Below, piece by piece: positions 1 to 64,000 of a stretch of DNA of 64,000 nucleotides. A program made the translations under genes and the position numbers. Origin of the DNA: Aptenodytes patagonicus. Lineage: Eukaryota > Chordata > Aves > Sphenisciformes > Spheniscidae. The stretch spans positions 620,001 through 684,000 of the forward strand of contig NC_134961.1 of the NCBI RefSeq assembly GCF_965638725.1, written 5' to 3'. The first letter of the stretch is position 1. Each line of letters starts with the position of its first letter. Under the pieces are notes generated by a model that made no database searches, was not told the origin of the DNA, and saw only the letters and a program-made list of their open reading frames with translations.

Positions 1-3000
1 GAGGAGAAAAGCCATCTCAAGGGCACGTGCTCCCTGCCCTGCTCCACACTGTGGATGAGCTCACTGGAACAAGAGGCGAGCTGACGAAGGAGCTGCGGAA
101 AACACTGGTGCATTGCTCACTCGTTGCTAAAGCAATGGGGGCATCATGAGACTGCATGCAAGAACACGGATCGTTTTACTGCTTCAAGCACAGAAGCAGA
201 GCGAAGATCATGACTGCTCCTTGCGATTACCCATTTTTAGCCCGTTTCATGGGGGCACTAATTCTTCCGCACAAACTGGGCCCTTCTCCAACCTGCTTCC
301 AACTGGTCGGGCATCCACAACGCCAGCACAGTCTCCATAAAGCAAGCAAGAAAGGTTAAAAGGTACCAGTGAAGAGGGATTAGAGAAGGGTATCAGGTGC
401 CACCTTGCAGCATCTCAGCAGCCTCAGCCCCCCAGATGCAGGAGGGGAAATGCAAATGATCCACACCCAGAGCCTTGGAGGAATAAGCAGGGCATTTTCA
501 GAGGATTTTTAACTACAAAACTGCATACCAGTTGCAACAAAGCTGTTAAACGATCTGTGGATGCCTCATGAGGGACTCTGGCTCATAAGGACCAAGGTGG
601 ATTCCACAACAACCTGCTCAATCCTCCACAGAGCACGTGACTGACCCAGCAATAACCACATCAAAAGTCAATAAACGAGAACTGAATATTCACCACTGCA
701 TTTGCAACCAGCTGTGACTCAACAAGGTGGCGTCACTTGGTACAACCTGGTAAAGTAACCGTATTCCTTTTCACAGGCAGGCTGACATACTGGTTAAATT
801 ACAGTCAGAATACCTGTATTTTGTGTTTCTTTCCTCGCACATCATGTCTTTCCTGTGAGGTGGTGTATTTGCTCCAGAACGCAAACCCCCGTCCTTCAAA
901 CCAATACCGACCATGGACGGCAGCTGACCAGAGCCGCAGCAGCTTGCCCAGACACTCGCAGTAAGTCGAGATCTGCTTAAACCAGAGGCTCGGAGGGAAA
1001 GAACATAAAAGCTGACGACAGCCCTCGGTGCTGCACAAGACTCCAGCGGATGGGTAACCTCAGGTAACACTCTCACCACATTTTCCAGCCTTTCAGGGGT
1101 AATCTCTCAGCAGCCAGGAGACTGCCTGCGTGTCAGGCTAACACTCCAGCGCACACATTCAAACATCTAACACAGCCGATGGAAAACTGGCTTCTTCCAG
1201 TCAGGCGGTCGGGAGCAGTACAGGGCTCACAGCAACGGTGTCAAGTTAGAAACAATTAGCAACCATTTAGCCTAAGAACTTTTTGTGCTACTTCCAGCTT
1301 GCTTCCTGAAATCAAATAAAACCATGCACACTCACTTCCAGCCGTCTTCACTGTCAGGTTTTGAGCCAGTCATAGCCAATCTTTCCAGCCCCAAGACAAA
1401 CACAATTAGGACTGCAGGACCAGAAGGGGCAGTGTCCTTCTGAACACACTCCACCTGAAGAAGGGAGGGGGGTTGCCGTCCTAACAGCCCTTACTGTTCT
1501 GGTGTTTAGTAACCTTCCTTGAATCTCCACCTTAGAAGTGTTCATGACCTCTTCTTCTGCCTAGAATGATCTTGAGCTTGAACAGCTCTTCTCCCTTCCT
1601 GAAATCAAGAGGATCCTTGTTAGACAAACCTGAAGAAGGCAAAGAGAAAGGTCTAGCCTAAAGCCAGTATGCTTTCAGAAAGAGCACAAGCAAGTGCAAC
1701 GGAAAATTAATTAACAAGCATCTAATTATATCCAAAGCCGTTAAAGGAAATACCAATATTTTTCTTTAATCTGCTGCTTGAAAGCATTAGTTGTTCAGTT
1801 TTACAAGGGAGGTACCACGCGTGGAACACTCTTTGGCAGCATCTAGGTCAACAGACCCCTTCCAGGGTGCATGTGAACATACAAACCCAACTCACGTGTG
1901 TGACGGGGTTACCTGCGCAAGCACGTTGGCTAAAAACCAATACACCGTTAAATTCTAGTCTGGGTAATTACAACAGTACAGAAACAACAGGATGATGATT
2001 TGAAAGAAGCAGTTTAATGTTCATTGCGTATGGTGGTTATAACTAATCCAGTCCATATCTAAAATCCTGTCGAAGTGTCAAGAGAAATCAGGTGCAACCT
2101 CTAGGCTGTAAGAAAGTTGCCAGCAGGGCCCATGGTACCACAGCTACAGCTCAGCAGGCAGCTCACATCCACCCAGTCGCCCATACTGGGAAAGCCCCCC
2201 AGCCACCCAAGGGACACGCAGAGTCCTGCTGTAACCTAGCAGTGACATTTGCCTTTCCTAGCAGCCCGAGAAACTAGTTCCCACCCCTCTAAAAAAGCAG
2301 GTTAGATTTTCTAAGAAAGCCAACACAGCTGAAGAATTTTTCTGGGCAGGCTTCCCCCTTCCATCTCCTCCACACCACCATTCCTGCTGAAGGCCAACCT
2401 GCAACAAGACAAGGTGTAACGAAGGCAGGACTATTCGAGAAGATCTTGCACCCCCTGCAAACGAAACAGGGGGACCTAGCTACCTCCATCACACAGCCCT
2501 GAGGATGTCACAGCCAGCAAGTCATCGGACACACGCAGAACTCGAGTCTCTGAATGAAAAGGCTACGCTGCTTCTGTACCCGAGAGTGAGGGAACCCAAA
2601 CTGCCGCTCTGCAAAGCCTTTAGCCTACCTGGAAAAGCCCAAGCAGAACAGAAACTTAGAAAAATTTGTAAGCGAATGGATACTGTAGGAGAAAAGAGCA
2701 CCTGAATTTCCCTGATGACTCGTTTTGTGAGAAGAATGAATAAAACTCTTTAAACAAGTTAAACCAGGCCAATCTCAAAAACCAGTCTAAGACAAGGTGA
2801 GTCACGGGCTCATCCCAACTTCACAAAAGCGGCACTGCTGACAACTCTCTAAGTTCTCAGAACGTCCCCCTTTGGAAAACAAATACCCATGTAGGCCACA
2901 TCAGTCCAACGGCTCCCAGGCGAGAACCACTGCCATTTTAAGGAGTTAGAGAAGGTTGTGACGTGGGAATTTTTCCATCCTATATTCCACCAGATCTGAT

Positions 3001-3589
3001 TTTCCTCCCGCGTCGCCACCAAACTCCGCCGTCGCTTCCTCTTTACCAGCAGGAGATGCCCCACTTGCCGCAGACCGACGACTTGCTGCAGTCGCGTTTC
3101 CAGAGCGGAGAGGCGAAGCCTCGCTCACCTACCACGTCCAAAGGGCAGCGACTGAGCCAGGCGGCCGCGGACACTGACGGAGGGACGGGCAGACTACTTC
3201 AGCGTTAGATTCAGGGCGCACGGCCCTCCCGCGTCCTCACGCTTCAGCCAAACAGCGCACCAAGACGGCCTTATACCACAGGTTTAGCCCGAGAAGATAC
3301 GTCCGTCGGCTCCCTCCACCAAGGAGGCCCCGAAGCCGGGCGGGAAGGGCCCCGAGCGGAGCCGGAGCCAGAGCCCGCCCCGGGCCCCGCTCGGCCCCGG
3401 CCGCTGACGGGCACTCCAGCAGCCCCTTCCCCTGGGGACGCCGCGGCCCGGCTGCCCCGGGACCGCCCTCCCCCCCCCCCCCCGCTACGCCTGTCCCCCT
3501 CGGGGCGGCCCGGGGGGCACCGGGCCCGGCGAAGGCCCGTCCCCCTCCCCCGTCCCCGGCGCTGAGGGGAGCGGCCCCGCGGCCCTCAC
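1..3589 (-). other. MGRN1: MGRN1 intron 1 (partial)
   Basis: This stretch lies downstream of the MGRN1 first coding exon on the minus strand and runs off the left edge. I looked for the next MGRN1 exon on the minus strand and found no matching open segment, so the whole stretch is read as intron 1. It is ordinary mixed-composition sequence on the left and becomes very GC-rich from about 3.1 kb as it enters the CpG island around exon 1. It includes a C run near 3471-3482. No RNA gene or recognisable transposon was found. Short open frames in it have no supporting splice sites or homology. Confidence 0.75.
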
Positions 3590-3677
3590 CGGACTTGGGC
3601 GGGTAGCGGTAGGCCGAGTTGGCCTGGATGTCGATGTCCTCCACGCCCGCGATGCGCCGGCTGAGCAGGGAGCCCAT
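3590..3677 (-). CDS. MGRN1: MGRN1 first coding exon (mahogunin RING finger 1, E3 ubiquitin ligase)
   Basis: Mahogunin is a cytosolic and endosomal RING-type E3 ubiquitin ligase; known targets in mammals include TSG101, and it modulates melanocortin receptor signalling. Only the first 29 codons are here. The start ATG is at 3677 reading leftwards, and the exon ends AAG TCC G followed by the consensus donor GTGAGG, so the intron is phase 1. The peptide starts MGSLLSRRIAGVEDIDIQAN and ends AYRYPPKS, which I recognise as the conserved MGRN1 N-terminus. Gly2 followed by Ser6 fits an N-myristoylation signal; that is inference. The RING and the rest lie outside the window to the left. The neighbour UBALD1 is divergent, as in human. 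Confidence 0.93.
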
Positions 3678-4040
3678 GGCGGCCGGGGGACGCAGAGCAG
3701 CGCGGCGGCGGCGAGCGGCCCGCACCCACGGCGGCGGCGGCGGCGCGGGGCACGCCGGGAGAGCGAGTCCTCCCACCCCGCGACTACAACTCCCGTCAGG
3801 CACCGCGGCGGCGCCTACCAACAGCGGCGCGCCGGGGGGGGGGAAGGGAGGGAGGCGCGCGCCCCACGGCCTCCCCCGGAGCGCAACGTGCGCTCTGCCG
3901 GCAGAGGGCGCTGCCACGCGCGGCCCGGGCCGGAGCTGCGGCACCGGGCGGCGGGGGGGGGCGGCGCGGGGGCAGCCCGCACGGGGTGTGCACGGGGAGT
4001 ACCCGGGGATACCCCTTGGATGGGGAGACCCTTGGGAGTT
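3678..4040 (-). promoter_or_regulatory. MGRN1: MGRN1 5' leader and CpG-island promoter
   Basis: This is very GC- and CpG-rich sequence directly upstream of the MGRN1 start, with no TATA box. At 3783-3794 it contains ACTACAACTCCC, a match to the ACTACA-type element bound by ZNF143/THAP11 in many housekeeping promoters. A G run occurs at about 3835-3843. The transcription start is not visible in the sequence; it is inferred to lie in the first few hundred bases upstream of the ATG. The minisatellite begins at the far edge of this promoter. Confidence 0.6.
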
Positions 4041-5622
4041 TGCACAGGGATGCACAGGGGGGATTGCTCAGGGACACGGGATGCACAGGGGGGATGGCCA
4101 GGGACACAGCCTGCACAGGGGGGGTGCACAGGGACACAGCCTGCACAGGGGGGGTGCACAGGGGGACAGGCTGCACAGGGGGGGTGCACAGGGGGACAGC
4201 CTGCACAGGAGGGGGATGCACAGGGACACAGCCTGCACAGGGGGGGTGCACAGGGGGACAGCCTGCACAGGGGGGGTGCACAGGGACACAGCCTGCACGG
4301 GGGGGTGCACAGGGGGACAGCCTGCACAGGGGGGGTGCACAGGGACACAGCCTGCACGGGGGGGTGCACAGGGGGACAGCCTGCACAGGAGGGGGATGCA
4401 CAGGGACACAGCCTGCACAGGGGGGGTGCACAGGGACACAGCCTGCACAGGGGGGGTGCACAGGGGGACAGGCTGCACAGGGGGGGTGCACAGGGACACA
4501 GCCTGCACGGGGGGGTGCACAGGGGGACAGCCTGCACAGGAGGGGGATGCACAGGGACACAGCCTGCACAGGGGGGGTGCACAGGGGGACAGCCTGCACA
4601 GGGGGGGTGCACAGGGACACAGCCTGCACGGGGGGGTGCACAGGGGGACAGCCTGCACAGGGGGGGTGCACAGGGACACAGCCTGCACGTGGGGGGTGCA
4701 CAGGGACACAGCCTGCACGGGGGGGGTGCACAGGGGGACAGCCTGCACAGGGGGGGTGCACAGGGGGACAGCCTGCACAGGGGGGATGCACAGGGACACA
4801 GCCTGCACATGGGGGGTGCACAGGGGGACAGCCTGCACAGGGGGGATGCACAGGGACACAGGCTGCACAGGGGGGATGCACAGGGACACAGGCTGCACGG
4901 GAGGGGGGTGCACAGGGGGACAGCCTGCACGGGGGGGGGTGCACAGGGACACAGCCTGCACAGGGGGGATGCACAGGGACACAGGCTGCACAGGGGGGGT
5001 GCACAGGGGGACAGCCTGCACAGGGGGGATGCACAGGGACACAGGCTGCACAGGGGGGATGCACAGGGACACAGGCTGCACGGGAGGGGGGTGCACAGGG
5101 GGACAGCCTGCACGGGGGGGGGTGCACAGGGACACAGCCTGCACAGGGGGGATGCACAGGGACACAGGCTGCACAGGGGGGGTGCACAGGGGGACAGGCT
5201 GCACAGGGGGGGTGCACAGGGACACAGCCTGCACGGGGGGGGTGCACAGGGACACAGCCTGCACGGGGGGGATGCACAGGGACACAGGCTGCACGGGAGG
5301 GGGGTGCACAGGGACACAGCCTGCACAGGGGGGATGCACAGGGACACAGGCTGCACGGGAGGGGGGTGCACAGGGACACAGCCTGCACAGGGGGGGTGCA
5401 CAGGGGGACAGCCTGCACAGGGGGGATGCACAGGGACACAGCCTGCACGGGGGGGGGGTGCACAGGGACACAGCCTGCACAGGGGGGATGCACAGGGACA
5501 CAGGCTGCACAGGGGGGGTGCACAGGGACACAGCCTGCACGGGGGGGTGCACAGGAGGGATGCACCGGGACACAGGCTGCACAGGGGGGGTGCACAGGGA
5601 CACAGGCTGCACAGGGATGCAC
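4041..5622. repeat. G-rich 30-bp minisatellite, about 52 copies
   Basis: A tandem array of a 30-bp unit. In each unit a run of five to nine G is followed by TGCACAGGGACACAGCCTGC and ACA, or by a variant carrying CAGGGGGACAG in the middle. Units differ at a few fixed sites: GTGCA or ATGCA after the G run, AGCCTG or AGGCTG, CACAGG or CACGGG. Marked variants recur: CTGCACAGGAGGGGGATGCA at 4201, 4381 and 4532, and CTGCACGGGAGG at 4893 and 5076. This indicates a higher-order unit of about six repeats (180-183 bp). The array ends on both sides in TGCACAGGGATGCAC. The plus strand is G-rich with at least one long G run per unit, so quadruplex formation is likely. It begins about 360 bp upstream of the MGRN1 start codon. 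Because the unit is exactly ten codons, several frames on both strands stay open throughout; these are not genes. Confidence 0.97.
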
Positions 5623-8600
5623 CTTGCAAAAGGTGCAAAGGCAAAGCAGGGAGAAGGAATTACGCTGAGGGTGCCCGGCCGGGGCAGCTCAGCCCCAGCA
5701 GGCTGTTTTGCTCAGCCCAGGGAATGAGTAACCTGCTGGTAGTTGTTTTGCAGAAGAGCTTCGTGCAGCAGCACCACAATCATCCCCACCAGCCTCCTTT
5801 CCCGCCGGCTGGTGGGGACCAGGACGTGGTGCCGGCGGTGCGTCCCCCCAGGCGCAGCTGGTCCGTGCTGGGGTGGGGGTGTGCGGGGAGCCTGCAGACC
5901 GTGTGGGCCAGCTGGGGTAGCCGTGCACCTCCCGGGAAGTTTGGCATGGGGATTCATTATCTGGGATAGTTCTCAGAAGTGGTACCTGCTAATGACTGAG
6001 GCTCACTGCCAGCAGGAGAGGAAGACGATAGGCCTCCCCGGCTGCAGGTCCATGCGATGTTCACATGGGGAAACCTCTCCTGGCTTCCTCCTCCCGCAGA
6101 TAATCCACGCAGGAAAGTGAATGGAGGGAGGTGTCTGAGGTTCGGACATGAGAGCGGGGAACGACTGAAGGCTGTCTTGCATGCATGACGCAACAGCCAG
6201 GAAGATGGCGTGGAGGAAGAGGCACGAAAGAGCCCCCACCAACATCCCAACACTGAACCCTGTCCCCTCCGGCACCGAGGTCTTGCAAAGGTGCAGGGAA
6301 GAGCCCCCCAGGCTCCCCTTGTTAAGGGAAGCACCTTCCTGCACGTGCGCTACAGACGGGCCCACGCTGCAAAGGAACCGGGGACCCAAATTCCCAACGG
6401 CGGTGTTGGGGATCCCCGGGAGACACGAGGGAGCTGAGGTGGCACGTGTGATATCTCTTAAATTGGCCTCGGGAGCAGGAGACTGGCACGGGAAGAGGGC
6501 TGGGGTGCAGGGAGACAGGACACGGCAGAAAGCCAAGCCTGCCAGCACGGGAGGATTTTGTGATAGTGAGCGGGCGGCGGGTGGAATTTGCTGGCCGTAA
6601 ACACAAACTAAAACACGCCCGGCAGGAATAAACAAACAAACCCGCAGGGAAACGTGCTTCCGGCTAGTTATTACCCTCGCAGTTGTTGTGGCCACCCCGA
6701 GCACAGCAGCTCTGCGCCAGCGGGGCCGTGTGAGGCATGGGCTGCGGGGGGAACGGGTGCTGGGGGTGAGGGCAGAGCAGGACCAGACCTCGCTCTGCTG
6801 CATCCCATGGCGCGACAGGGCTGGGAAGGACAGGGAAAAGCCAGGGAACTAGCAACGGCCACGTCCTACCGGCAAACCACGAGAGCCAGGCACCCTGCAC
6901 CTGGCACCGGGGAGACCTGGGCTCTGCCTTGGCAATAACGGTGCCTGGGCGCTGCCCGCTGCCAGGGATCGAGGGATCCTGCTGGCACCCGGAGTGATGG
7001 TGCCTCTTGCTCAACCAGCCTCTCCGTGCAAGAAGTTTCTCGTGACAGAAATTGCACGGAGAGGGAGGGATGGAGTCTGCTGAGCGGGAAAGCAATGCCC
7101 GGCCCACGTGCCCTGTCCCAGAGCGTGTCCCAGCTGCTCCCTGCCTGCACGGGGAGCTCGGAGACGCTCCTCGGTGCTGGGAACAAGCACCCGGGCAGTG
7201 CCCTGGCAGCAGCAGGCTGATGCAAACAGCTCATGGTGCCACCAGGAGCCCCAGACCAAGCAGGGTGAACCCATAACCCCCCACAGCCTCACCCTGCACG
7301 CCAGCAGCCGACTTGGGGCTCGGCGCGGGAGCAGACCCGGCACAGCAAGGCTCAGCGGCTCCGTCTCCCCCGTGCCGTGCTGGGAACTGGTTGCCAACCG
7401 GCAGCCAGCTGGCCGCAAGCACGGGGGCAAAGCAGAGCCATGTTCGCGACAGGGCGAGGAAGGGAATTTGCACAGGGACAGAAGACAAGGGTCGCTCTCC
7501 CCTCCTGCGTCCCGAGCACCAAGAGCATCCTCTGCCCTTCCCCAGCCCAAGGAAGCGCCCGGTCTCCATCCCCTCTTGGCAGGCAACTGCCCCAAAGCTG
7601 TCCCCCGAGCTTTTTTGGGGACAGAACCAGCCACCTTCCTTCTGCAGCCATCCGTGCTGCTCACTGGGAACCCGGCACCGTACAGGTTAAGCGGGGAAGC
7701 CAAGGGGAGAGCCGGCGTCCCAGCAAGCAGCGGGGCACTGGCACTGCCGAGCACCGGGGCCGCCCGGGGAAGCGGCTGCGGTGGGAGGTTTTTGTTCATG
7801 CAAAACCTCCACCAGTGGGAAGGTCCCTCCCGGGCCACACAGCTCTCCGGAGCTCGGAGGAAGCAGTTGGGCCCCTGGGGGGGTTATTGTCATCTGGGAG
7901 GGCAGGGGCCTTTGCTGGAGAATCTCTCCCCCGGGGCCCCGCTCGGTGAGACGTATGTGACAAACTACAATAGCAGCAGCGTGCCAGGGACGGGCTCAGC
8001 CCTTCCGCTCCGAACCCCCGGGCCCAGAGCGAGCAGAGCTGAAGGGCAGCACCTCCAGCGGACGGCGGTGCCTTTACCCCCGCCCAGCCCGGGGGACGCG
8101 GGCGCTGGCACACACAAAGGCAGGATATTGCACCACTCGCCTCCTCCGTCCCGTCCCTCGCAGGAGCCACTGCCAGCAGCACCGGGAAGGAGAGCGGGCG
8201 ACTTGGGGACGGAGCTGCTGCCAGCAGCGGGGCAGGGAGCCGGGCTGCCCTGCCAGCCCGCACGTGGGGACCCAGCAGCACCACAGCCACGTCCCATGGG
8301 CCAGAGGAGCGGCAGCCCCCCAGCCTGCGGCACCACGGTGGCTGCAAGAAGCGGCGATAGCCCCACAAACCCTGGTGGTGCCACCAGGCGTGGGTTTTGC
8401 ACCTTCACCCTTTGCCTCCAGGCTCCCGAGCCCGTATTTCCCCCCCGGTGTGGTGCTGCCAGCCCTGGGCCCTGCACCATGCTGAGGATAGAAAGGGAAG
8501 AAGGCCACGAAAGCTGGAGGCCCTCCCTGACATCCCCAAAGGGATGAAAACACTCCCATGAGGTACGAGGGAGCCTGAAACCTCATTGTGTGGAGTGAGA

Positions 8601-10200: not shown

Positions 10201-11056
10201 CCTTCCAGAACTTTCCCCCGCTGCCGGCTCTCCATCTCGGCAGCCACGTCGGCGGGGCGCGGGGATGCGCTCCGGCCCAGGGAGCGGGCCTGGGGGGGGG
10301 GGGAACTGGGCAACCCCCCCCCGTCCTTTATAAGCACTGCCGGGGAGCCCCGCGCCAGGCCCGGGGCCAAGGGGCCGCCGTCCCCCCCTCACCTCAGCCC
10401 CCGGGGTTGTGAGGCGAGCCGCCAGGCAAGGGGCCGCCGACAGGCCCCCGCGGGCCGGGGAGGGGGGGGGGGGGGGCACCGCAGGGCCTGCAGAGGACCC
10501 CCGCCGCCCGGTTAAACATTACCCGCGGGCCGGGCGCCACCGCCCGCCGGGGCCAAAGGGCGGCAGCGGCGGCCCCGCCGCGGCCGTTCCCGTTCCCGTT
10601 CCCGCGCCCCCGCCCCGCGCGCCGCGGCCGCTCCCCGCACGTCAACAGGAAACCGCACGCGGCCGACTGTAAACACCGCCCGCGCCCCCCCCCGCCCACG
10701 TGACCCGCCCCAGCCCCGGCCCGCCCCCGCCGCCCTCTGATTGGGGGCAGCGGCGTTGTTGACCATATACGGTCAGGTACTACCAAGCCGCGGGCGGCGG
10801 TTGGCCGGCCTGGCGCGTCACTCAAGGCGCGCCGGCGCCCGGCGGCCGCTCCGCAAACAAAGCGGGGGCTGCCGGGAGTTGTAGTCCGGGCGGAGCCAAG
10901 GCGGCGCGGCGGCGGAGCGGGCGGAAACTACATCTCCCAGCGTCACCCCCGCGCCCCGCCCCTCCCCGCCCCGCCCCTGGCGGCCGTCGGCGGGGCTCGC
11001 CGGGCGCCGTGAGTCAGTGCCCAGTAAACATTGGCGTGAGCCGCGCCGGCTCCGCC

Positions 11057-11074: not shown

Positions 11075-18983
<7,909 letters not shown>

Positions 18984-24000: not shown

Positions 24001-27000
24001 ACGGTGGCCCGGCATGGTGGGGATGTCGGCGCTCACCGTGCTGCTGGAGCTGGCTCTCATGGCGGCTGACATGGGTCCCCACGGCTTCGTGCTGCTCCAG
24101 CAGCCAGCTCAGCCTGCATGGGGACTCGTGGGCTGACTCCTGTGAGGGCTTGGGGCTGAGCTCCTGGCTGGAGAGCTTCTGAAACAAAACAGCCCCCAAG
24201 GTTTTGGGGAGAGAGAAGATCCCCGTGCTGTCCTGGAGCCGAGGGGCATTGCCAGCAAGGGAGCCTGGCACCCAGGAGCCTGCACGCACCTTGCCAGCGG
24301 GCGCCCCGCAGAGAGAGCTGCAGCACAGTGCGGTGGCATGCCAGGGGAAGGAGCTCAGCTCCTGATGCACCTCTGCCTGTGACCAGGAGAGAAATCAGCC
24401 CTTCTGTCCTGCTGCAGGAGCAGAGGGCCTGGGCAGCCCCCAGGATGGGGAGGGCAATGCCAAACCTTGCCACCACCCCCAGTGCCGTCCCCAACCCTGC
24501 AGGTCCCCTGGGCCTCAAAATCTAGAGGGTATAATCCACCCCTGTGTCTGCGTTGCCATGTCCCAGGGTGATGATGCTCTTCTGGCATTGCAGGAGGGAC
24601 AAGAGCAGTGGAGGTGGCTGGTGGAAGCCACCAGGACACCGGGGCACCTAGGGATGGATGTCCCTGCTCCAGTGGCTGGAAAGGTGACATGGACCCTGCC
24701 AGAAGAGCCTTGTGGGGCCAGATGCTCACCCAGGCAGGTCACCATGGCCAGGGCAGCCCTGGGGAGGCTTGAGTGCATTTTCCATAAGGATTGGCCAAAG
24801 CCTGACCCTGGACAGCTTGGGGACAGTCCCAGGGGCTGAGTGCTGAGTGCCTCTGTGCACGGTGCCGCAGACTCCCAGCCCCTCTGCCAGGGCTCCCCCC
24901 ACTCACCATTCGGTCCAGGATGCTCCGCAGGAGGTGGCCGTGCTCGTCCTGCTGCACCGACCGCTCTCGCAGCTCCTCCAGACCAGCCTGTTAAACAGAG
25001 GCATCAGGGGGTTCGGCATCCACAGGGGTTGGGAATGGCGGGGGTCAGCATCAGCAGGGACAGACAGGGATCGGCAGCACCCAGCCTGGGCCAGGGCTGG
25101 GCTCCCTGGCTGCAGGCAGTGTCTACTCAAAACCCCCGGGCTCCAGGGCAGATCCCCCATCTCCCAGCTTAGCCTTGGGGTGGGAAAGAGCCTGAGCTTG
25201 GGACCTCATCCCTGTCACCCTGTGCCACCTGGCCATCCATGCAGGTCCCTGGGGAGCCCAACAGCTCTGCCAAGAGATCTCCGGCAACTAGCCCAGCTTC
25301 ATGCATGCACCTTCTGGAAATTGTCCTTCAGGAGCTGCAGCTCCTCCTGGAAGCCCTCGACAGTGGTTTTCAGGGAGCAGATGGTGGTGAGCATCTCTTG
25401 CAGCATGTCCATGACCTGAGGAACATGGGTTTGGCCACTGATGCTGGGTCCCTGTGGGCTCCGGGGGACATGGGGAGAAGGGAGGCTAAGTGGTGCACAG
25501 TGAAGACCCGGGTTTGGGGGTGTCTCTGGGACCCAACAGAGCTGCCACAGCATCAGCCACATCCAGCTGGCCCATGGCCATGCCCATGGAACTCCCCCAA
25601 ACTGAGATGGAAGACACTCGAACGGGACAAGCTTCCCAGCTCCAGCTTCCTCGCCCCGTGCTGTCACCTTTTCCTTTTGCTCTGTGGTTGTGCTCAAAGC
25701 CAAGGTCATGCCATGTGACATGGGACCAGCTCGGGGCTGCCCCGTCTCACAAGGGATGAAGTGTTGGGTTTGCTGGGGGCCAGCCCCACGCTGCCTGTGG
25801 AGAGGACAGCCAGGCACAAGGCCACCGCAACTCATCCTTGCGCTGCAACGTGTGGCTTGAGCGAGGAAGACAGCTCTGATGTTACGTGTGTTGCGTTTCC
25901 CACTCAGAGTCTAAACGTGAACAGCCAAATAACTTGAACTTGTGCTGTTGGCAATGTCTCCCATGGGATCCTGCCTTGGTGTGGGGAGAGCCTGCTGTGA
26001 AGCAGCACCGCTGTCACCCGCAGCTCAGCCACTCACTGTGCCGCAGGGAAGAGAGGAGAAGAGGAGCCTGACGGGGATGCTGCTGTCGCTGCTGGGGGGA
26101 GTGGGAGCTGTGTGCTCCTGCCCACACCCACCCCAGCCCCAGGCACGGCTGGGGGACCCTTGCCAGGGCAGGATGGGACCCAACAGATCTAAATCTCAGA
26201 GCAAGTACTGATGGAGCCTCAGGGGCGGGTCAGAAGCGACCGAAAACACCTTTGGCCAGTGGCTGTGTTAAATACTGCTCTTTAATAAGTGGAGCTGGGG
26301 CCACCACAGCCAGAAAGGTGCCTCCGTGCTTCTCTGGGCTCCCTGGTCCTGGGGCAGCAGATGTCATGGCAAGGGCAAGACATGACGGGCATGTCACTGT
26401 GTAGGGCAGGACACTACATAGGGCTGGACACTGTGTGTGGCAGGATGCCGTGGCGGGTGGGACACTGCGTAGGGTACAAGATGGGGCAGGTCACTGCATG
26501 GGCAGGACCCTGCATAGGGCAGGACGCCGCCCAGAGCAGTACATCATGTAGGGCAGTGCGTGGCATAAGCCAGGACACCAACGTAGGGCAGGATGCTTGC
26601 GTAGGACAGGAGACTGTGCAGAGCAGGACACTCCATAGGGCAGGCTGCCACACAGGGCAGGACACTGTGTAGGGCAGGACACTGTGTCGGGCAGCACATG
26701 GCACAGGGCAGGGCCCCGTGTACGGCAGGGCCCCGTGTAGGGCAGGGCCCCGTGTAGGGCAGAACCCCGTGTAGGGCAGGACGCGGCACGGGGCACACCC
26801 CGCTGTGACACTGTAGGGCAGGACCCACAAGCCAGCGGCCCGGCAGCAGTGATGCAGCAGCGGGACTGGCGCCCTGCCGAGGATGGGCACCATCCAGAGG
26901 GTGGCTTCTCACCTTCGTCATCCCCTCCTCAGTCACCTCCATCCTCTTCTTCAGCTGCACCATTTGCCACGCTTCGGCGGCCGGCCTGCCCGGGGCCGGC

Positions 27001-51690: not shown

Positions 51691-52523
51691 GTACATCTTT
51701 TCTTCTTCTCCCCCCCCCCCCCCCCAAACCCACAGCAGATCCGCCCCCCTGGGAAGCTGAGGATGAGGAGGGATGGCATGGGGGAAGTGGGGCACAGCAG
51801 TGCCAAGCACTGGAGGAGGAGCAGCAGCTTCCCTACCCCAGGGCAGGGCAGCAGAGGCCCCGGGGGTAACGGGACCTTTCCCTACCCAGCCCTTAGCTGC
51901 AGCTGGGGCTTCCTCAGCTCTGCCACTCAGGCAGCCCCTCTCCTTGTGCCCAAGCTGAAGAGGAGAAACACCCCCCAAGACTGGGCTGGAGGAAGGCAGA
52001 GGGGTACCACTGTCACCAGGCCCAGCCCAAGCTGAAGAGGAGAAACACCCCCCAAGACTGGGCTGGAGGAAGGCAGAGGGGTACCGCTGTCACCAGGCCC
52101 AGGTCCTTCCTGAGGCCCAGCACAGCACCAGAGAGCAAGAGGCAGCTGTGTGATCCCGGAGCACCTTCCCTGCCTCCAGGGGAGCATCGCCCCCGGCAGA
52201 GCAGGAGCCCCCTCACCAGGGGAAAGGCCCGGGCCATCGCAGCGCCTGGCTGTGCCCTTGGAGCAGGGGCAGTGGGTCCCCTCCCCCCAGGAGCTGGGGG
52301 AAACCCAAGGGGAGGCAGCAGTGACGGGGTGGGATGTAACGGCAGGAGCATCTCTGGGACTGCACGAGTCAGAAAGAGACAAGTACAACAGCGTGGGAGC
52401 CTGTACCCCCTCCGCTCCTCCCCATTAACCTCCTCCCCCCCACAGACCCACACCTCGCAGCATAGTCCGCTCACTCTCCCAGTGACACGCGTTTGGCTTT
52501 CCCCAGCTACAGCATTGCAACTT
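51691..52523. other. Convergent intergenic gap between CDIP1 and HMOX2
   Basis: About 0.8 kb between the two poly(A) signals. It contains a pyrimidine tract with about 16 consecutive C near 51711-51726 and the 77-bp tandem duplication. No gene was seen. Confidence 0.7.
51948..52101. repeat. Two-copy 77-bp tandem duplication
   Basis: The segment beginning GCCCAAGCTGAAGAGGAGAA occurs at 51948-52024 and again, head to tail, at 52025-52101. The only difference seen is one base (ACCACTG versus ACCGCTG). The near identity indicates a recent duplication, or an assembly artefact. Confidence 0.95.

Positions 52524-63748: not shown

Positions 63749-64000
<252 letters not shown>

Follow-up and report, generated by a model that had tools for sequence, protein, structure and literature searches.

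The window analysed here, the whole 64,000-bp stretch at positions 620001–684000 of contig C13, contains upstream of MGRN1 a tandem array of a G-rich 30-bp unit, which occupies window positions 4051–5616 on the plus strand over 1,566 bp (~1.57 kb). We consider it probable that this array is a locally born, single-locus, neutral and unstable minisatellite at the edge of the MGRN1 CpG island, with at most modest and incidental effects in cis on MGRN1.

Structure and internal rearrangement of the array

Tandem Repeats Finder (TRF) described the array in two calls, 4051–5555 (period 30, 49.7 copies, 89% matches) and 5548–5616 (period 30). Splitting into units at the boundary between CAGSC and TGCAC and a search for internal repeats gave the following parts:

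4041–4111, plus strand: left edge, one half-unit (4041–4050) and two worn units (4051–4111), from unit splitting and alignment
4112–5607, plus strand: 49 complete units in 18 variants, from unit splitting and variant typing
5608–5623, plus strand: right edge, terminal half-units TGCACAGGGATGCACC, from sequence and unit splitting
4178–4689, plus strand: copied block, a 181-bp exact repeat at offset 331 (4178–4358 and 4509–4689), from the internal repeat search
4811–5197, plus strand: tandem block duplication, a 204-bp exact repeat at offset 183 (4811–5014 and 4994–5197), from the internal repeat search

An earlier note on this DNA had proposed about 52 copies of a 30-bp unit, each with a run of five to nine G, and had named TRF as the check. 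Unit and copy number were recovered, as 49 complete and two worn units with half-units at both ends, and TRF agreed; the G runs are present as well, but their range has to be given separately for the two halves of the unit. The consensus TGCACAGGGGGGGTGCACAGGGACACAGCC, which is also the commonest complete unit (9 of 49), consists of two half-units that each open with TGCACAGGG. The first carries a long G run, the longest being 5–10 G; in the second the run is 3 or 5 G long, except in one irregular 42-bp unit. The array holds 68 G tracts of at least five. Among the complete units a length of 30 bp prevails (34 units), followed by 32 bp (eight), 29 bp (four), 31 bp (two) and 42 bp (one). With head-to-tail units inside the range of 11–60 bp, by which minisatellites are defined in the part of PMC4992247 available to us, and with tens of copies, the array is a minisatellite. 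Allowing two mismatches, the 12-mer TGCACAGGGGGG has 84 matches in the window, of which 71 lie within 4041–5619 and 13 elsewhere; the window as a whole would be expected to give 22.9, and the largest shuffle gave 37. This excess excludes chance for the array.

The two left-edge units lie at edit distances of 6 and 3 from the consensus, compared with a mean of 2.2 for inner units; since 16 of the 49 inner units are also at 3 or more, edit distance alone is weak evidence for wear. The second TGCACAGGG, however, is broken in both left-edge units and identical in 48 of 48 aligned inner units, the 42-bp unit having been excluded from this alignment. The right edge shows no such wear, apart from that one irregular unit, which speaks against a neutral reading of the array.

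Inside the array, the 204-bp repeat represents a block of about six units copied adjacent to itself, and the 181-bp repeat a block of about six units copied 11 units away. The exactness of both points to recent block duplication; 204 identical bases place the 95% upper limit on divergence between the copies at ~1.5%, a likeness that gene conversion would also preserve. Types D and F are restricted to the first 24 units and types B, H, I and J to the last 25; types A, C, E and G are present in both parts of the array. Unequal exchange, gene conversion or slippage would be expected to leave such a distribution and such copied blocks. Because of the recent block duplications seen in this one assembly, copy number is likely to vary between individuals. 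Long exact repeats of 204 and 181 bp are at the same time the places where assemblers err, so that misassembly might have inflated or collapsed the copy number. We hold an artefact of this kind to be very unlikely as the explanation of the array, given that the 18 unit variants are intermingled, that two units at the left edge are worn, that the window is free of N and that no second place with the unit was found: it could alter the count but hardly create the array.

Long open frames (514–702 aa) run through the array in all six frames, which might suggest a repetitive protein. They are open because the unit has no stop trinucleotide on either strand (over 4051–5616, five frames are free of stops and the sixth has 1), and unit lengths of 29–32 bp shift the frame; we therefore rejected a coding repeat, whose probability we regard as negligible.

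Position between MGRN1 and UBALD1

The array is intergenic and lies in a divergent interval with the following features:

3001–4000, no strand: MGRN1 CpG island, CpG observed/expected 0.71–1.05 in five 200-bp windows, from CpG counts
3590–3677, minus strand: first coding exon of MGRN1 (MGSLLSRRIAGVEDIDIQANSAYRYPPKS, with a GT splice donor following inside the next codon), from translation and DNA
3783–3801, plus strand: ZNF143/THAP11-like promoter motif ACTACAACTCCCGTCAGGC, from a motif match
11156–11263, plus strand: first coding exon of UBALD1 at the far side of the interval, with a UBA-like domain (Pfam PF22566, E 2.1e-15)

We take the minus-strand gene to be MGRN1 from its similarity to human MGRN1, the first coding exon (30 aa) having no Pfam match, and the plus-strand gene presumably is UBALD1, from similarity together with the UBA-like Pfam match. 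With start codons at 3677 (minus) and 11156 (plus), the array indeed sits inside the MGRN1–UBALD1 interval and starts, as had been stated, about 360 bp upstream of the MGRN1 start codon, the distance being 364 bp when counted from 4041 and 374 bp when counted from 4051. Its far end is 5,540 bp from the UBALD1 ATG. The interval is thus lopsided around the array (0.37 kb to one ATG and 5.54 kb to the other), and the earlier suggestion of an effect on either gene is too wide, UBALD1 being 5.5 kb off. For MGRN1, the size of the array and the short distance to the start codon make an effect plausible, which also speaks against the neutral reading.

Two matches to the ACTACAACTCCC motif, which we take to be ZNF143-like, are present in the window at up to three mismatches (0.06 expected), one for each divergent gene start, at 3783–3801 for MGRN1 and 10867–10885 for UBALD1; the array begins 250 bp past the former. 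The CpG island of MGRN1 stops at the left edge of the array, where CpG observed/expected drops from 0.96 (3801–4000) to 0.10 (4001–4200). This drop would fit a CpG island boundary or nucleosome-placing element, in which poly(dG) factors such as VEZF1 (BGP1) would occupy the G tracts and shield the MGRN1 island from methylation. In chicken, VEZF1 binds a string of dG and its sites protect a CpG island from methylation, according to the available text of PMC2795164, and the array has 14 copies of GGGGATGC, the complement of GCATCCCC in HS4 footprint III, compared with 8 in the remainder of the window. However, the unit sequence by itself accounts for the low CpG (the array has 18 CpG, with 177 expected by composition), 14 copies of one word within a repeat are not independent, and the same available text describes a poly(dG) globin site without effect in transient assays (PMC2795164). 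A boundary function appears quite improbable.

Nearness to a telomere was considered and rejected: the first 10 kb of the contig contain 5 TTAGGG and 3 CCCTAA words and no long array, and the array lies ~0.62 Mb from this contig end. No part of the window matches a known RNA family at gathering scores, nor does the window contain any of four CR1 end patterns. Among the titles and abstract openings listed in a literature search, none named a repeat upstream of MGRN1.

Occurrence in the genome

Searching the window's own assembly (1.35 Gb, 618 contigs) for the 30-bp unit with up to three mismatches gave at least 36 matches, and 36 of 36 fall inside this array, with at least 3 matches genome-wide for the reversed-unit control. 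A second place with the unit, which a dispersed repeat or satellite family would demand, was not found in this search. A search with the whole array returned the array itself and 12 weaker matches at 65–78% identity. Seven of these 12 were read as loci L002–L008, the remaining five lying outside the loci read, and all seven are G-rich arrays of other periods. Their shortest TRF periods are 10–21 bp, apart from L004 and L008, overlapping parts of one place with a period of 88 bp, whose consensus we read as pieces of ~22 bp. The 30-bp unit is absent from all seven, which have TGCA and G-run words in common with the array; having been found by similarity to it, they owe their likeness in part to selection. 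The 1.5-kb flanks of the array show no real similarity to L002–L008 (best E 7.6e-4, short pieces). As far as searched, the array looks to be confined to a single locus, and a unit present at no other place between flanks unlike those loci would most simply be accounted for by birth in place.

G-rich arrays reach at least 1 kb at three or more other places of the genome. One of them, seen in L004 (119–2274) and L008 (1519–3457), lies on the same contig as the window (C13, ~7.39 Mb), exceeds 2 kb and has GTGTGCATCCC-type units. L002 contains at 2983–3607 a G-rich array of a 49-bp unit (91% matches), which adjoins a C-rich array of 17-bp period on contig C532, itself 23.7 kb long. A 16-mer, GGGGTGCACAGGGACA, is common to three arrays of different periods on different contigs: window 4051–5616, L002 1493–2660 (C532) and L005 1501–1680 (C27). 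Across the genome it matches 27 times, at 5 places of which 3 are arrays, compared with 1 match for the reversed pattern. As a candidate for a genome-wide seed or privileged amplification word it was rejected, since its shorter core GGGGTGCACAGGGG is without clear excess elsewhere: of the 88 core matches, 17 are in this array, which leaves 71, compared with 59 for the reversed control. Of these 71, 60 stand alone, with no other match within 1 kb, and the other 11 fall into four clusters. Clusters of the core on C25 and C32 and sites of the 16-mer on C3 and C5 lie outside those read.

Minisatellites are ordinary in GC-rich parts of contig C13. A sample from C13 only, made up of 20 stretches of 10 kb taken at intervals of 1 Mb, was searched for arrays of at least 150 bp with a period of at least 10; it yielded three arrays (234, 397 and 420 bp) in two stretches, of GC 0.65 and 0.60. 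The array described here is larger than all three; its kind is common, and this example is large and near a promoter. The window itself holds a second, more worn minisatellite at 26387–26802, with a 17-bp unit GGGCAGGACACTGCGTA in ~23.5 copies, whose GGGCAGG word presumably resembles the classical Jeffreys minisatellite core. At 51948–52102 a 77-bp sequence stands twice in tandem with 98% matches, which implies recent duplication, and at 63766–63993 an 84-bp period, which we take to be typical of C2H2 zinc-finger repeats, continues past the window end into L013 (3–660).

Minisatellites of chicken have already been catalogued, those of at least 50 units covering 1.27% of galGal4, with higher density on some chromosomes, as the available part of PMC4992247 states. 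The accessible text of PMC4203960 reports an abundance of poly-G and quadruplex motifs in chicken promoters, and PMC12954441, in the part available, gives the name sequence stuttering to the local birth of repeats in avian genes, which it describes mainly for introns on dot chromosomes.

Folding potential and possible effects on MGRN1

The proposal that the array forms quadruplexes, with G4Hunter as its check, found a mixed answer. No 1.5-kb stretch of the window has a higher mean G4Hunter score than the array (1.17), in which 50% of the 25-nt windows score 1.2 or more; outside the array 5.8% do so, counting either sign. At a threshold of 2.0, however, the fraction is 0.4% in the array and 0.7% outside, and the top single window (3.64) lies outside. 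Canonical G3+N1–7 motifs are not repeated along the array: its 1,566 bp contain one non-overlapping motif, at the worn left edge, the other 25 of the 26 plus-strand motifs in the window being outside. This scarcity arises because each unit has a long spacer. A run of seven G allows two triplets, the next run follows after 6 bases and the one after that only after ~12–14. With longer loops, 15 motifs (loops to 12) or 27 (loops to 15) are obtained, and two-tetrad motifs (G2, loops to 7) number 32. For CEB1 and CEB25 in yeast, instability is tied to short loops, and CEB1 is also unstable without the consensus motif, as the available text of PMC5491262 reports; few canonical motifs consequently do not exclude instability driven by quadruplexes. 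Quadruplexes in the array are thus possible on these predictions, though not an obvious driver of its instability.

It is unlikely, in our view, that the array is a regulatory VNTR of the insulin type, in which G-strand quadruplexes and C-strand i-motifs would tune MGRN1 according to repeat number and variant. The analogy draws on place, 374 bp from the ATG here and 363 bp upstream of the TSS in insulin, and on words, CACAGGGGGGGTG here and ACAGGGGTGTGGGG in insulin (PMC11336075, in the part available), a likeness that carries no claim of shared ancestry. Activation of the insulin reporter needs both structures and tracks i-motif stability, according to the accessible part of PMC12852952. The 68 G tracts, the top G4Hunter mean and the 32 two-tetrad motifs also favour such a role, all the more as the canonical motif is described in the available text of PMC5491262 as missing many quadruplexes and predicting them less well than G4Hunter. 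Against it stand the single canonical motif in 1,566 bp, the spacer of ~12–14 nt after the second G run and the low share of 25-nt windows at the higher G4Hunter threshold.

GC skew in the array is ~+0.3 on the plus strand, so an R-loop would be favoured only for rightward RNA. The R-loop claim of the earlier note would consequently hold for RNA made in that direction, putatively as upstream antisense from the MGRN1 promoter, which would be G-rich, but not for RNA made toward MGRN1; leftward RNA, as putative antisense from UBALD1, would be C-rich. MGRN1 has a role in pigmentation, and the array could be imagined as a length-variable tuner of this gene, in which an antisense R-loop over the G-rich plus strand would expose long-loop quadruplexes and i-motifs and set MGRN1 output, allele length would shift melanocortin-dependent traits such as plumage, and an independent counterpart of the insulin VNTR would result. 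This chain of steps has in our judgement little chance of being correct.

Arms of the type TGCAC...GTGCA flank the G run in 35 occurrences. Hairpins as a mark of the G-rich strand were nevertheless rejected, since ordinary base pairing is not favoured in folding against shuffles: as DNA, 212 nt of this strand (4112–4323) fold worse than shuffles (z +2.28; 199 of 200 shuffles at least as good), and as RNA no better (z 0.30; 115 of 200). The C-rich strand of the same segment folds, as DNA, somewhat better than shuffles (z −1.73; 13 of 200).

Returning to the neutral minisatellite that we prefer, we propose that the array was born locally, where the MGRN1 CpG island has its upstream edge, from a short G-rich seed in which two TGCACAGGG half-units of 13 and 17 bp would have made up the 30-bp unit. 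The array would then have grown and changed shape as single units and blocks of about six units were duplicated, through replication slippage or through unequal exchange and gene conversion between near-identical blocks, with exchange or slippage, rather than quadruplex stalling, as the probable main driver. Effects on MGRN1 would be small, incidental and not selected, arising from spacing, from nucleosome placement by G tracts and from occasional single-strand structure.

Comparison with known repeat systems

The nearest functional analogue of the array would be the human insulin VNTR, which is alike in place and words and not in loops. Both are G-rich arrays of short units with ACAGGGG words and several unit variants, located a few hundred bp upstream of a gene (PMC11336075, in the part available), the distance here being counted to the ATG of MGRN1 and not to a TSS. 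The insulin unit, however, is 14 bp long with two G tracts and short loops, and quadruplexes have been measured in vitro for several of its variants, whereas the array described here, known from sequence alone, has a 30-bp unit, spacers of 6 and ~12–14 nt and one canonical motif. Human CEB1, CEB25 and HRAS1 are likewise GC-rich tandem arrays and are prone to internal rearrangement, as stated in the accessible part of PMC3486850. In yeast, CEB1 instability mostly requires three G triplets separated by single-nucleotide loops (PMC5491262, available text); of such triplets, one G run of the present unit yields at most two. Sequence stuttering on avian dot chromosomes resembles the array as a local imperfect tandem expansion in GC-rich, gene-dense DNA, but the available part of PMC12954441 describes it for introns, 190 of 236 on dot chromosomes, and the array is intergenic on a contig of 20,257,728 bp (20.26 Mb). 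A local origin from neighbouring single-copy sequence, as in stuttering, may lie behind the array, whose unit was found at this locus only and whose left-edge units are worn.

Should the array prove to vary and to influence MGRN1, it would stand as a natural parallel to the insulin VNTR, of independent origin and with different unit variants, tract lengths and spacers, and thus a second system for testing which structure matters. If it does not, it would still be a good example of a GC-rich promoter edge that collects a fast-changing repeat.
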